Shown piece by piece: positions 60,365 to 64,000 of a stretch of DNA of 64,000 bases (positions are counted from its first letter, which is position 1; the number at the start of each line of letters is the position of its first letter). The stretch comes from Thauera sp. JM12B12 (GTDB taxonomy: Bacteria > Pseudomonadota > Gammaproteobacteria > Burkholderiales > Rhodocyclaceae). The stretch is from contig NZ_CP154859.1 of assembly GCF_039614725.1 (NCBI RefSeq), forward strand, positions 2,418,001-2,482,000. Reading direction: 5' to 3'. Under the pieces are notes generated by a model. It saw only the letters and a list, made by a program, of their open reading frames with translations. It was not told where the DNA came from and did no database searches. The position numbers were made by a program, and so were the translations under genes.

Positions 60365-62986
60365 TCAAGCCGCGTCATCTCCCGCACCCGCTGCATCATC
60401 TCCCGCGCCCGCAATCGTCACCGCCAGCCGCTGCCCCGCGGCATCGGCATAGAGCGTGAGCACGCCCCGCGCGGGATCGGCGACGTGAACCACGTCTGCC
60501 CATTCGGCATCGCCCGGGAGGAGCTCGCCCAGGCGGTTCGGCCAGCGCAGGATGGCGTCTTCATCGATCTCGTTGCCGGCCAACCTGGGAAAGAGGGCGA
60601 AGTAGAGCAGATCGGCCTCGATCAGCTCGTTGAGGAAATGCGTGCCGAGGGAAACGTCCGGGACCAATGTGTCGTGCATCGCGACGATCTCGCACAGCGC
60701 CGCCACGTGGTTGATCTCGGAGAACAGCACCGGAATGCCGAGGAACGGATCCTTGGATCCCCAACGCCCGGGGCCGAGCATCAGCACGCAGCGCCCCCCG
60801 GCGAGCGCATTGAGGCGCCCGAGGACCCGCGTTACCGCGAGCCGGCGCGCCTGATTGAGCGCGCCATAGGCCGCCGGTCGAACATATACGACGCGTTCGG
60901 GCCGGATCACGCGCCCCGGCCCGATCACCGCACCGCGCGCGCTGAGCAGCCTCGTCGCATCCGCCGGCGGCACGACTTCGGCCACCCCCTCGACGCTGCG
61001 CACCTGCATCGGCCGGCACTGCAGCAGGTTGATGCGATAGCCACCGTCCGGCACGAAGTTGAGCGCAAACTCGATCTCGACCGCATGCGCATAGGCGTCG
61101 TGCAGGCGGGCGAGCAGGAGGCGCAGGTCGGCTACGAAGTCCGTGCGCGCGATCAGTCCGTCGAAGGTGAGGAAGGCGGGACGGTCCGGACCTTCCCGCG
61201 TGGTAAACAGCGCCTCGGGAAAATCCGCCTGGCCGCGCACCAGCTCCGCGAAGGGGCCGGTGACCACCTCGTTGCGCGTGAGATCGAGCGTATCCATGCG
61301 GCGCTGGGCGTGGCGGGCGATCGCGCCGAAGTTCGTCTCGGGTCGCAACTCCGGCGCGTTGAGCGCGATGAGCCGGGTGTAATCGTCGTCGGCGCGGTCC
61401 ACCGCCCGCGTACCGAGACCCGCCACCAGGCGCACGACGCCGGCCCTCATGTCGATGCGCGGATTCCACGGATAGGGATTGACCGAGAGCCCCACGCCGG
61501 CCGCGTGCGGGTGGAAATAGCGCCCGCCCGCGGTACCCGACACGCGCATGATCAACAGCGCCATCTGCTCGTGCTCGTCGAGCAGGCCGCGTCGCTGGCG
61601 GTAGCGCAGCGCCTGCTCCGAGAGCGTGCTCGCATAGACCTGGCGCACCGCATCGAGCAGGTCGGCGAGCCGCTTCTCGCGCGGGCCCTGGTTCACGCAG
61701 AACACGCTGTCGTACTGCCCGGCGAAGGCATTGCCATAGCGGTCTTCGAGCCGGGAACTGGAGCGCACGATGAAGGGCCATTCGCCGAAGTAGTCGAGCA
61801 TGGCCTCGAACTGGCGCACCGTCGAATCGGGGAAGCTACCGCGCAGGATGCGCGCGCGCGCGCCATCGTCCCCGTCCAGCCCCTGCAGGAAGCCCGCCGG
61901 ATCGCGCTGACGCCGCCGGATCCACCACAACCCGTTGCGCACAAAGAAGGTGTCGAACACCTCGCTGCCGACATAGAAGGAGTCGTGCGCCTCGAGCCGA
62001 GCATGCAGCCCGGACGCATCGCGGCGCAGGACCGCGCGCGCCACCAGCATGCCCGCCGCCTTGCCACCGATGGTACCGATGCCGATCATGCGCGCCCGCA
62101 CTTCGAGCAGATCGTCGAGCGTGAGGTAGCGCTCGAGCAGACGCTGGAGACCGGCCTCCTCCGGAAACAGCAGGCGGGCCAAGCGGGCGAACCAGCTGGC
62201 CTCGGCGGCCGTGTCGGGCGCCCCGGCCCGACGCAGGGCGGACACCGTGCGCGCTGCGTCGAAGAGCTGCTGCCAGTGACTGCGGATCTGCTCGTCCTCG
62301 AGCCCGGGCCAGCCCGAGCCCGCCAGGATCTCGGCCACCGTGCCGCTGTCGGCCACCGGGCGGAAGCGGTCGCCCGCCTCCCAGGCGTGGATCAGGTTCA
62401 TGGCCGCGGCCGACCGGTGCTGCACCTTTATCGGCTTGACGTAGAGCCGGTCACGGCAGCGGAACACGTCCAGCAGGTACTGCGTGGTCTCGGTGATCAT
62501 GTCCATCCCGGCGTGCGCATGCCGGTTCCGCAACACACCGAAGTAGGTCACCGTATCCAGATCGAAGAGCCGCGGGCAGGTCAGGCGAAAGAAGTTGCCG
62601 AGCATGCGGTCGGACTGCCAGGCGTCGGCCAACTCGGACAGGCAGTCGAACACGTAGAGCGCCTGCGGGCCTGCGGCCTCGATGACCGAGTGCACCTGAT
62701 CCACGAAGGCGTCGAAACCATCCTCCGGGCGGGGGCGGTGGATCTCGGCCCCGCCGTCCTCGGGGAGCAGCGTCGCATGGCTGGCGAAGCGGAAGTAGAT
62801 CAGCCGGTCGCCGCGCGCCAGCGCCGCGGCTGCATACGGACGCACCAGCGCGCCATAGTCGGCGAGCGACTGGATCTGCCAGACGATGTTGTCGCCCGGC
62901 GCGACGCCGGAGAGCACGGCGTCGAGTCCTGGCAGGCCGGTGGTGGGCGCGAAGCCGCGCGCGCGGGGGATGGGCGTCGGGTTCAT
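60365..62986 (-). CDS. Large PEP/pyruvate-binding (PPDK N-terminal) protein with KaiC-like N-terminus
   Basis: An 873-residue protein. Residues about 15-270 look like a RecA/KaiC domain (GLPGLDAVLSGVAPGDNIVW, IYFRFASH, ALYVFDCLSELADAW), but the P-loop GxxGxGKT is absent. About 300-700 is the PPDK N-terminal ATP-grasp domain (GTIGGKAAGM, FIVRSSSRLEDRYGNAFAGQYDSVF, EFALNFVPDGGYRINLLQCRPMQ). A C-terminal module has LGPGRWGSKDPFLGIPVLFSEI. The PPDK phospho-His and PEP domains are missing. It ends in an imperfect GAGDDAA repeat. The biochemical role is unknown. Confidence 0.85.
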   Translation of the reverse strand: MNPTPIPRARGFAPTTGLPGLDAVLSGVAPGDNIVWQIQSLADYGALVRPYAAAALARGDRLIYFRFASHATLLPEDGGAEIHRPRPEDGFDAFVDQVHSVIEAAGPQALYVFDCLSELADAWQSDRMLGNFFRLTCPRLFDLDTVTYFGVLRNRHAHAGMDMITETTQYLLDVFRCRDRLYVKPIKVQHRSAAAMNLIHAWEAGDRFRPVADSGTVAEILAGSGWPGLEDEQIRSHWQQLFDAARTVSALRRAGAPDTAAEASWFARLARLLFPEEAGLQRLLERYLTLDDLLEVRARMIGIGTIGGKAAGMLVARAVLRRDASGLHARLEAHDSFYVGSEVFDTFFVRNGLWWIRRRQRDPAGFLQGLDGDDGARARILRGSFPDSTVRQFEAMLDYFGEWPFIVRSSSRLEDRYGNAFAGQYDSVFCVNQGPREKRLADLLDAVRQVYASTLSEQALRYRQRRGLLDEHEQMALLIMRVSGTAGGRYFHPHAAGVGLSVNPYPWNPRIDMRAGVVRLVAGLGTRAVDRADDDYTRLIALNAPELRPETNFGAIARHAQRRMDTLDLTRNEVVTGPFAELVRGQADFPEALFTTREGPDRPAFLTFDGLIARTDFVADLRLLLARLHDAYAHAVEIEFALNFVPDGGYRINLLQCRPMQVRSVEGVAEVVPPADATRLLSARGAVIGPGRVIRPERVVYVRPAAYGALNQARRLAVTRVLGRLNALAGGRCVLMLGPGRWGSKDPFLGIPVLFSEINHVAALCEIVAMHDTLVPDVSLGTHFLNELIEADLLYFALFPRLAGNEIDEDAILRWPNRLGELLPGDAEWADVVHVADPARGVLTLYADAAGQRLAVTIAGAGDDAAGAGDDAA

Positions 62987-63206: not shown

Positions 63207-63668
63207 ATGCCCCGCCCGACCCTGTCCGTCCGCCTTGCCCTTCTTTCCTTGTCCGCCCTTACGCTGGCCGCATGCTCGAGCGAGATTCCCGACACCCATC
63301 CCGAGCAACCGGTGACCAAGCGCCAGCAGGCCTTCAAGGCGATGCTGCGCAGCTTCGAGCCGATGGGAACGATGCTCAAGGACCGTCGCTACGACCCCGA
63401 CGCCTTCGCGCGCCTGGCGAATGAGCTTGCCAGCCTGCGCGAACGACCCTGGTCGCATTTCGGCCCCGATACCAACTACCCGCCCACCAAGGCCCTCCCT
63501 GCCGTTTGGGAGAAACCGGCCGATTTCGAGCAGCGCCGCACATCCTTCATCGAAGCCAGTGACCGGCTGATCGCCGCCGCCACTGCGCGCAACGAAGCAG
63601 ACGCCCGCAGCGCCTACGCCGAGGTCCAGGACAGCTGCAAGGCCTGCCACCGCGATTTCCGCAGATAA
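63207..63668 (+). CDS. Cytochrome c'-type lipoprotein
   Basis: A 153-residue protein with a lipoprotein signal peptide (MPRPTLSVRLALLSLSALTLAAC, lipidated C23). The mature four-helix domain ends in the haem-binding site CKACHRDFR (C144, C147, H148), in the C-terminal place typical of cytochrome c'. Such proteins bind NO or transfer electrons in the periplasm. Membrane anchoring is less usual for the family. Upstream gene is divergent. Confidence 0.88.
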   Translation: MPRPTLSVRLALLSLSALTLAACSSEIPDTHPEQPVTKRQQAFKAMLRSFEPMGTMLKDRRYDPDAFARLANELASLRERPWSHFGPDTNYPPTKALPAVWEKPADFEQRRTSFIEASDRLIAAATARNEADARSAYAEVQDSCKACHRDFRR

Positions 63669-63678
63669 GTCGGAGAGG

Positions 63679-63786
63679 AAAAGGGCGAAGCGGGCCGGAG
63701 GACTTCATCGGGCCGACGCTGCAGGGGGCAAGACCGTTGAGGGGAGACGATCACGCAGCGCTCACGACTCGGTCCCGCTTCGCACA
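63679..63786 (-). ncRNA. Candidate sigma-54-dependent small RNA
   Basis: The perfect sigma-54 promoter at 63797-63812 would start transcription near 63786. From there, GCGAAGCGGG (minus strand, 63783-63774) pairs perfectly with CCCGCTTCGC (63694-63685), closing a structure of about 100 nt, followed by CCTTTTCC (T-run at 63682-63679). A nested 6-bp stem pairs CGCTGC with GCAGCG (63760-63755 with 63722-63717). Unpaired stretches contain TCTCCCC and GCCCCC. No minus-strand gene lies downstream before 62986. This is a prediction from sequence only. Confidence 0.45.
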
Positions 63787-63796
63787 GCAGTAGATC

Positions 63797-63812
63797 AGCA
63801 AAGCCCGTGCCA
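63797..63812 (-). promoter_or_regulatory. Perfect sigma-54 promoter
   Basis: On the minus strand TGGCACGGGCTTTGCT matches TGGCACG-N4-TTGCW at every position, with -24 GG at 63811-63810 and -12 GC at 63799-63798. It lies in an intergenic region, 118 bp downstream of the regulator's stop codon, and points toward the candidate RNA. Confidence 0.78.
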
Positions 63813-63867
63813 GGTTGCTTCAGCCCCGCCGTCCGGGCGTTTCAAGCCGCTCCTGTGCGAAAGCTCA

Positions 63868-63903
63868 CTGCCATCTACTGCCTTGAGGCAGCCATTGCTG
63901 CCA
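63868..63903. promoter_or_regulatory. Candidate enhancer (UAS) with overlapping inverted repeats
   Basis: CTGCCT-TG-AGGCAG (63878-63891) and GGCAGC-CATT-GCTGCC (63887-63902) are two overlapping perfect 6-bp-arm inverted repeats, flanked by CTGCCA at 63868 and 63898. They centre about 98-110 bp upstream of the predicted start of the small RNA, the usual place for an enhancer-binding protein. Confidence 0.5.
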
Positions 63904-63929: not shown

Positions 63930-64000
63930 CTATCCTTCGCCCGCCGCCGTATCCTCGCCGCCGCGTTCCACCAGTCCGAACTCCTTGAGCCGCCGGTAGA
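63930..64000 (-). CDS. C-terminus of a Fis-type (probably sigma-54-activating) regulator (truncated by window edge)
   Basis: The last 23 codons read YRRLKEFGLVERGGEDTAAGEG and a TAG stop (complement of 63930-63932). YRRLKEFGL is the recognition-helix ending of the Fis-type helix-turn-helix found at the C-terminus of sigma-54 enhancer-binding proteins (..TLYRRLKEYGL). The rest lies beyond base 64000. Its position just before a sigma-54 promoter supports this reading. Confidence 0.6.
   Translation of the reverse strand, partial: YRRLKEFGLVERGGEDTAAGEG

Follow-up and report, generated by a model that had tools for sequence, protein, structure and literature searches.

We identified, in a 64,000-nt stretch of the Thauera sp. 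JM12B12 genome (the window), a candidate gene for a structured small RNA of ~108 nt, which is probably made from a sigma-54 promoter under a FisR-like activator and acts in trans through C-rich loops. The sequence supports the promoter, the repeats upstream of it, the structure, the U-run, the conservation and the link to the activator; transcription, the inducer, action in trans and the targets are what we infer beyond it. On our best reading, the RNA would found a new family of sigma-54-dependent small RNAs in a FisR-type sulfur-stress regulon. A conserved RNA that matches no known family and lies beside a FisR-like gene suggests that a small RNA takes part in the sulfide response of Thauera and its relatives. 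If this is true, the sulfide/persulfide response of bacteria common in denitrifying and wastewater communities would have a post-transcriptional arm.

A predicted small RNA gene behind a sigma-54 promoter

A sequence-only reading of the window had proposed that a sigma-54-dependent small RNA, so far undescribed, is encoded next to an enhancer-binding protein gene, and the promoter, the repeats, the structure, the U-run, the co-occurrence with the activator and the absence of an Rfam family all bear this out. The promoter, described there as leftward and matching at every position, reads TGGCACG, GGCT and TTGC in succession on the minus strand (63812-63798) and agrees with the sigma-54 consensus at 11/11 scored positions. 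Counting the last C of the promoter as -12 predicts a +1 at 63786, the same start as had been proposed. Further, no minus-strand open reading frame of at least 60 amino acids overlaps 63679-63812, in line with the claim that the gap holds no gene on that strand. The perfect 10-bp pair between the ends of the RNA and the T-run just after the cytochrome gene were likewise found where they had been described (Table 1): the convergent plus-strand gene, which encodes a c'-type cytochrome (Pfam Cytochrom_C_2), ends at 63668, 10 bases from the U-run.

The pattern TGGCACGN4TTGC occurs seven times in the 4.17-Mb genome, compared with once for the reversed control, and three of the seven sites lie within 10 kb at this locus: one precedes the RNA of the window (copy A), one a 1-Cys peroxiredoxin gene, and one a second RNA copy (copy B). 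Because of these counts, and because promoter and RNA are conserved in relatives unlike their flanks, we do not attribute them to chance. Copy B lies 9 kb away in the same genome (C1:2490883-2490993, minus strand), with a perfect sigma-54 site upstream, and precedes a second Rieske gene. This second gene is a stand-alone gene of the bc1 type (L008:15254-15856, genome C1:2490253-2490855, minus strand), and the housekeeping-like petA is found at C1:1175860-1176432. Also on the minus strand of the window, 60365-62986 encodes an 873-aa protein with a PPDK_N (pyruvate phosphate dikinase ATP-binding) domain, the ~300 N-terminal residues of which have no Pfam match; a relative of this protein lies near the RNA and the cytochrome in several other genomes.

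Table 1. Positions of the predicted RNA and associated features in the window
Feature	Position	Strand	Basis or remark
Sigma-54 promoter TGGCACGGGCTTTGC (-24/-12)	63798-63812	minus	Sequence; genome pattern count; conserved in homologues
Predicted small RNA, copy A, ~108 nt	63679-63786	minus	Predicted +1 and transcript; 3' end in U-run
P1 5' arm GCGAAGCGGG	63774-63783	minus	Sequence and folding
P1 3' arm CCCGCTTCGC	63685-63694	minus	Sequence and folding; perfect complement of 5' arm, 10 bp
U-run UUUU after P1, intrinsic-terminator-like	63679-63682	minus	Sequence; run common to homologues
P3 5' arm	63754-63761	minus	Alignment and folding; compensatory changes in copy B and relatives
P3 3' arm	63716-63723	minus	Alignment and folding
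P4 5' arm GAUCGU	63747-63752	minus	Alignment and folding
Apical C-rich loop CUCCCCUCA, CCUC core, candidate seed	63738-63746	minus	Folding
P4 3' arm ACGGUC	63732-63737	minus	Alignment and folding
C-rich 3' internal loop UUGCCCCC, second candidate seed	63724-63731	minus	Homologues and folding
Upstream repeats TGGCAG/CTGCCA, probable enhancer sites of activator	63868-63903		Inverted repeat CTGCCTTGAGGCAG at 63878-63891
FisR-like enhancer-binding protein gene, 3' end (462 aa)	63930-64000	minus	Extends past the window to genome 2483318

The RNA is predicted to fold into a single rod

When each copy was folded alone, P1 was closed in 23/23 copies, with a mean z of -3.0 (range -1.5 to -5.2), and CCUC stood in an apical loop in 22; one copy of the 23, L045, has a different fold inside P1. 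The sequence-only reading had described one nested stem between the end arms. The pairing was confirmed, but the RNA folds as one long rod from P1 to P4 rather than around a single stem, with a short side hairpin in some copies. The C-rich single-stranded stretches noted there can now be placed more exactly, as the apical loop and a 3' internal loop, the latter with ACCCC or CCCCC. A run of at least four U lies near the end of P1 in 27/28 copies examined.

In alignment A5 (23 sequences, the second G251 copy not included), which was fitted to the structure, 94.8% of 582 cells form standard pairs, compared with 31-56% in slid controls. Changes on both sides occur somewhere in 20/27 pairs, a count partly inflated in P1 by a register shift between copy types. 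For these two reasons, we gave the individual folds more weight than A5. A compensatory change is evident in P3, where CGCUGC/GCAGCG in copy A is replaced by CGCCAC/GUGGCG in copy B, and Pseudothauera lacus (L176) has the same rod built from different stems, with AACGUC and GACGUU enclosing ACCUC at its tip. These comparisons support the view that the conserved element is a structured small RNA gene whose stems are kept by two-sided change.

Homologues are found in Thauera and related genera

A DNA search with 63660-63830 in 61 genomes matched 12 (our own included), all of the same genus, and copy B was 75% identical to copy A over the matched 107 bases; a plasmid DNA search gave no match. Covariance model R1, built from 13 sequences, gave 27 matches in 29 Thauera genomes at E up to 1 (all E-values are rough, owing to a short calibration). 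Eighteen of these, in 16 genomes, were accepted for a sigma-54 site at the expected distance, and the other nine had no such site. Weak matches were accepted because of this site, so that acceptance by promoter is partly circular for them. In a family-wide search of 297 genomes, R1 added G251 and G137, of two other genera.

Among 24 loci examined for the site, nine have 9-11/11 positions at -23 to -29 and fourteen have 8 or fewer. The fourteen were left out for having no sigma-54 site, as were L075 and L249-L252. The second G251 copy (L067/L254) has a 10/11 site at -26 with repeats upstream, a loop that contains CCUC, and eight consecutive U. Two low-scoring matches, at E 0.007 (G001) and 0.0025 (G137), have perfect sigma-54 sites, a feature that is not part of the model. 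In each of G008, G014 and G018, model R2 detected a divergent copy ahead of the second Rieske gene, with a site of 10-11/11; order-wide (399 genomes), R2 gave one match besides our own genome, without a sigma-54 site. The R3 family search (395 genomes) recovered the three divergent copies and added G752, of a further genus, with a 10/11 site and an RNA that reads the same as that of named locus L178. Among named activator loci (the best 80 of 115), the R3 matches at E up to 10 numbered 15. Nine were strong and came from Thauera-type records; the others were L176, L178 and L175 at E 0.0013-0.0046, L182 at 0.29, and two weak ones, L209 and L234, which were left out of the copy count.

Altogether, 24 copies were retained, 21 in 18 Thauera genomes (two of them in our own) and three in G137 and G251, of two other genera; four genomes (G000, G004, G008 and G251) have two copies each. 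Five further copies in named relatives (L175, L176, L177, L178 and L182) were recognized from site and fold on weaker evidence, and L177 and L182 are the least certain, having been assigned by eye, with L182 at the R3 value given above and L177 not listed by R3.

We compared the window copy with six homologues. Identity in the first 101 bases of the RNA was 75-89% and in the promoter 67-87%, compared with 9-47% in 29/30 flank comparisons; the exceptional flank, 75% identical downstream, is that of G004, where the same cytochrome gene follows. Judged by these identities, the RNA and its promoter are conserved and the flanks are not. Rfam gave no match at the RNA, either in the window region (E up to 10) or at ten homologous loci (E up to 1). 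A literature survey covering mostly open-access journals turned up neither this RNA nor any small RNA under FisR; in the parts of the surveyed papers drawn on here, sulfide and persulfide responses involve protein regulators and enzymes, and none ties a small RNA to FisR. Near the RNA in G137, L062:2301-2469 gives a sub-threshold Rfam match to the Vibrio RNA AS7 (67 bits; gathering score 90).

The RNA co-occurs with a FisR-like activator

The activator has PAS_4, Sigma54_activat and Fis-type HTH domains (Pfam), and GAFTGA is present in 15/15 orthologues. Its cysteines 25, 53, 64 and 71 are invariant in the 14/14 orthologues that reach this region, Cys 191 and Cys 362 are found in 15/15, and the seventh, Cys 340, varies. 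According to the parts of two FisR papers drawn on here, sulfane sulfur joins Cys53 to Cys64 of the Cupriavidus protein through a tetrasulfide (PMC9495516), and the Acinetobacter protein drives a sulfide-oxidation operon with a predicted sigma-54 promoter (PMC7315123). By its sequence, with Cys53/Cys64, a sigma-54 AAA+ domain and a Fis-type HTH, the Thauera activator looks like a FisR-type regulator. Because FisR is a sulfane-sulfur sensor, we favor sulfur over nitrogen or carbon as the candidate signal.

The activator is present in 19/29 Thauera genomes (E up to 1e-120). The RNA was found in 18 of these 19 and in none of the ten genomes without the activator; the nineteenth, G019, is a partial genome in which the activator match is truncated. 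In the ten activator-less genomes, R1 gave no match with a sigma-54 site, and R3 gave no match in the eight that it listed. The co-occurrence has a Fisher p of 5.5e-7, treating related genomes as independent. In G002, G017 and G022, the RNA and the activator lie on different contigs or far apart, yet both are present. As contrary evidence, the sequence-only reading had named close relatives that retain the flanking genes but have lost both the promoter and the pairing arms. Such a case was not seen in full form, as the 18/19 count indicates, but G002 and G022 (taken as T. propionica and T. linaloolentis) are a partial exception, in that they have no sigma-54 site within 700 nt behind the activator gene and carry the RNA elsewhere, before a Rieske gene.

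The 4,200 bases upstream of the 20 promoters scored contain the hexamer TGGCAG/CTGCCA 49 times, with at least one before each promoter; the 54,368 bases taken from other parts of these loci contain it 55 times (11.7 versus 1.0 per kb). Inverted repeats of the form CTGCC-N4-6-GGCAG are found at four places in our own 18-kb cluster, three of which are the copy A promoter, copy B, and the stretch between the activator and peroxiredoxin genes. From this distribution, the repeats are probable enhancer sites of the activator.

Among the genes of the cluster, one encodes a metallo-beta-lactamase-fold protein that is nearest to a sulfur transferase/dioxygenase model, below its cut-off; others encode a SLAC1-type transporter, a 1-Cys peroxiredoxin, a Rieske protein above the bc1-subunit cut-off and a NifX-like protein below cut-off. 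These neighbors are in keeping with a sulfur role. In G008, a second FisR-like activator gene (G008:C1:2264274-2265626, 81% identical) lies ~13 kb from the second Rieske gene and the divergent RNA copy.

In the sequence of events that we propose, the FisR-like activator would bind the upstream CTGCCA/TGGCAG repeats and would be switched on by sulfane sulfur linking Cys53 and Cys64, whereupon sigma-54 RNA polymerase would make the ~108-nt RNA. Transcription would end at a terminator whose two arms are the RNA's own ends. The finished rod would expose two unpaired C-rich elements, the apical loop with CCUC and the 3' internal loop with ACCCC or CCCCC, which would most likely pair in trans with G-rich ribosome-binding sites and so lower translation of the targets in sulfur stress.

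Small RNA or leader of a Rieske transcript

Since a second Rieske gene follows most copies, the chief alternative to a small RNA with a function of its own is a leader role. On this account, the RNA would be the 5' leader of a sigma-54-dependent Rieske (or NifX-like) transcript and would control read-through or translation, and copy A would be a leftover. Indeed, in 16 of the 21 loci with context, the RNA is closely followed on its own strand by a Rieske gene, whether intact or broken; in another, the second G251 copy, a NifX-like gene comes after the U-run. Further, Gallionellaceae-type loci L192, L193, L196, L198 and L202 have, downstream of the activator, a sigma-54 site and a rod with CUCCUCUC that has no U-run and leads into a NifX-like gene ~30 nt on; in L216, too, the rod that follows a sigma-54 site lacks a U-run and continues into a NifX-like gene, and in L186, L188 and L189 (Cognatazoarcus, Azoarcus), a Rieske gene is preceded by a 9-10/11 site and a rod that lacks a U-run. 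In seven Zoogloea-type loci, assigned by eye, the Rieske gene follows its own sigma-54 site and a short leader with no rod, and for this reason we regard Rieske as a usual target of the FisR-type regulator. Yet a leader would need the Rieske gene always directly downstream, and it is absent from that position in 5/21 loci. Four of these (the window, G004, G005 and G008) have neither a Rieske nor a NifX-like gene there and nevertheless keep RNA, promoter and U-run. The NifX-linked G251 copy ends in eight U. The copies of G005 and G008 are 87-88% identical to the window copy, compared with 89% for those of G015 and G010 (G004, 75%; G009, 84%), so that, by sequence identity, three of the four copies with neither gene behind them are as conserved as copies with one. 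What follows the RNA is the convergent cytochrome gene in the window and G004, and a gene that we take from its sequence to encode a radical-SAM protein in G005 and G008. In addition, the model found no RNA copy at the second Rieske gene of G005, which lies 3 kb away. L176 and L178 have a second terminator-like hairpin between the RNA and the Rieske gene, in tandem with the first, and the RNA is intact in G010 and G020, where the Rieske gene looks broken, a break that may be an assembly error. Because the RNA is conserved without Rieske and intact beside a broken one, and because of the second hairpins and the G005 Rieske gene without an RNA, we favor an RNA with its own function and consider a pure leader unlikely.

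The two roles could also be combined, with most transcripts terminating as small RNA and some reading through to Rieske, which would be compatible with our preferred explanation and is rather unlikely, though a little less so than a pure leader. The RNA end is terminator-like, and in the loci read, the Rieske gene begins ~50 nt on, leaving little room for another promoter, but the four loci without Rieske do not need such a dual role. The Gallionellaceae-type rod, which has no terminator, may be distantly related to the RNA, and the second G251 copy, with activator, RNA with U-run and NifX-like gene, looks like a bridge between the two arrangements; the RNA may have arisen as a leader or double as one. 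The high identity over ~110 bp, with its sharp edges, could also reflect a DNA-level element, such as an attachment site or a protein-binding array, or part of a small protein missed by annotation. We regard this as very improbable, since the stems change on both sides with pairing kept, distant members keep the fold although their stem sequences differ, and a sigma-54 site (9-11/11) stands at nearly the same distance before each accepted copy. As to a peptide, an ATG near the 3' end of the RNA is missing in some homologues, and we rejected a coding function.

A separate housekeeping-like Rieske gene is listed in 28/29 Thauera genomes, and the incomplete G010 has only fragments of the second Rieske gene. 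The activator tree is poorly resolved, and the number of Rieske losses is therefore uncertain. Within the stretch examined, a Rieske relative (at least 35% identity) lies in 52/80 activator loci (the best 80 of 115).

Comparison with known regulatory RNAs and FisR regulons

CbrB-CrcZ and NtrC-NrsZ of Pseudomonas are sigma-54-dependent small RNA genes tied to an enhancer-binding protein, and the Qrr RNAs of Vibrio, under LuxO, are sigma-54-dependent siblings. The Thauera RNA resembles CrcZ and NrsZ in being a predicted sigma-54-dependent gene linked to an enhancer-binding protein, but it carries C-rich loops in a closed rod rather than A-rich motifs that bind Crc/Hfq, and its activator has a PAS-type domain with FisR cysteines rather than a phosphoreceiver domain. 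Of the likeness to these Pseudomonas pairs drawn in the sequence-only reading, the layout of regulator, promoter and RNA stands; the nitrogen/carbon analogy is not supported, the activator resembling the sulfane-sulfur sensor FisR; its remark that the A-rich CA motifs of CrcZ are absent holds, the RNA sequence being C-rich. The likeness to Qrr lies in sigma-54-dependent siblings (two copies in four genomes here), and the differences lie in the single rod, compared with several stem-loops, and in the signal. Membership of the CrcZ, NrsZ or Qrr families was rejected because Rfam gave no match at the RNA.

The FisR regulons of Cupriavidus and Acinetobacter, in the parts of PMC9495516 and PMC7315123 drawn on here, share with the Thauera locus a sigma-54 activator, with Cys53/Cys64 in the Cupriavidus protein, and sulfur-detoxification genes nearby, here a dioxygenase-like metallo-beta-lactamase-fold protein and the SLAC1-type transporter; they differ in that protein-coding operons (sqr, pdo, tauE) are described, and a term search of PMC7315123 did not return 'small RNA'. 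NmsRA and NmsRB of Neisseria, in the part of PMC5362039 drawn on here, are likewise Betaproteobacterial sibling RNAs, with anti-Shine-Dalgarno motifs and metabolic-gene targets, but are tandem copies with -35/-10 promoters under RelA rather than sigma-54. For the Thauera siblings, a candidate signal, a promoter and candidate seed elements can be named, and they raise the question of why the RNA so often precedes a duplicate Rieske gene. A bolder reading, which we rate slightly below the combined role and as rather unlikely, is that a FisR-type sensor of reactive sulfur drives sibling RNAs whose two C-rich elements act in trans on ribosome-binding sites of respiratory genes, and that a promoter of this kind at the sibling locus also yields a substitute Rieske protein. 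A single signal would then turn off part of the normal electron-transport chain through RNA and provide a replacement subunit as protein.

Candidate targets of the C-rich loops

By analogy with RNAs such as NmsR, and because two conserved elements are unpaired and C-rich, we propose an anti-Shine-Dalgarno mechanism in which the CCUC loop and the C-rich internal loop probably pair with ribosome-binding sites. RNAduplex was run against 306 start regions, comprising 305 crudely called ones (400 kb and our own cluster) and petA, and gave no convincing target among them; pairing energies were no better than shuffled. Housekeeping petA was rejected as the main target, its start region ranking 46-168 of 306 for the RNAs of the window genome; the petA start region GGGAAGAGGGTCATG does fit the CCCUCUU loop of the divergent copies in G008, G014 and G018. 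Pairing of the apical loop with the Shine-Dalgarno sequence of the copy's own downstream Rieske gene was also set aside, as inspection by eye revealed no conserved pairing.

In the 306-region sample, the best internal-loop sites lay in one operon, at nqrD for copy A and nqrB for copy B. We rejected both as targets because genomes that lack the RNA carry such sites as well: the nqrD site is present in G012, G023 and G027, and a one-base variant of the nqrB site in G023, as judged with a pattern that located only some of the sites. The operon that holds these two start regions is nqrA-F (L130:12368-18286). For position preference at the Shine-Dalgarno sequence, 2/60 shuffles scored as high as the copy A apical loop, compared with 5 to 26 of 60 for five other segments.
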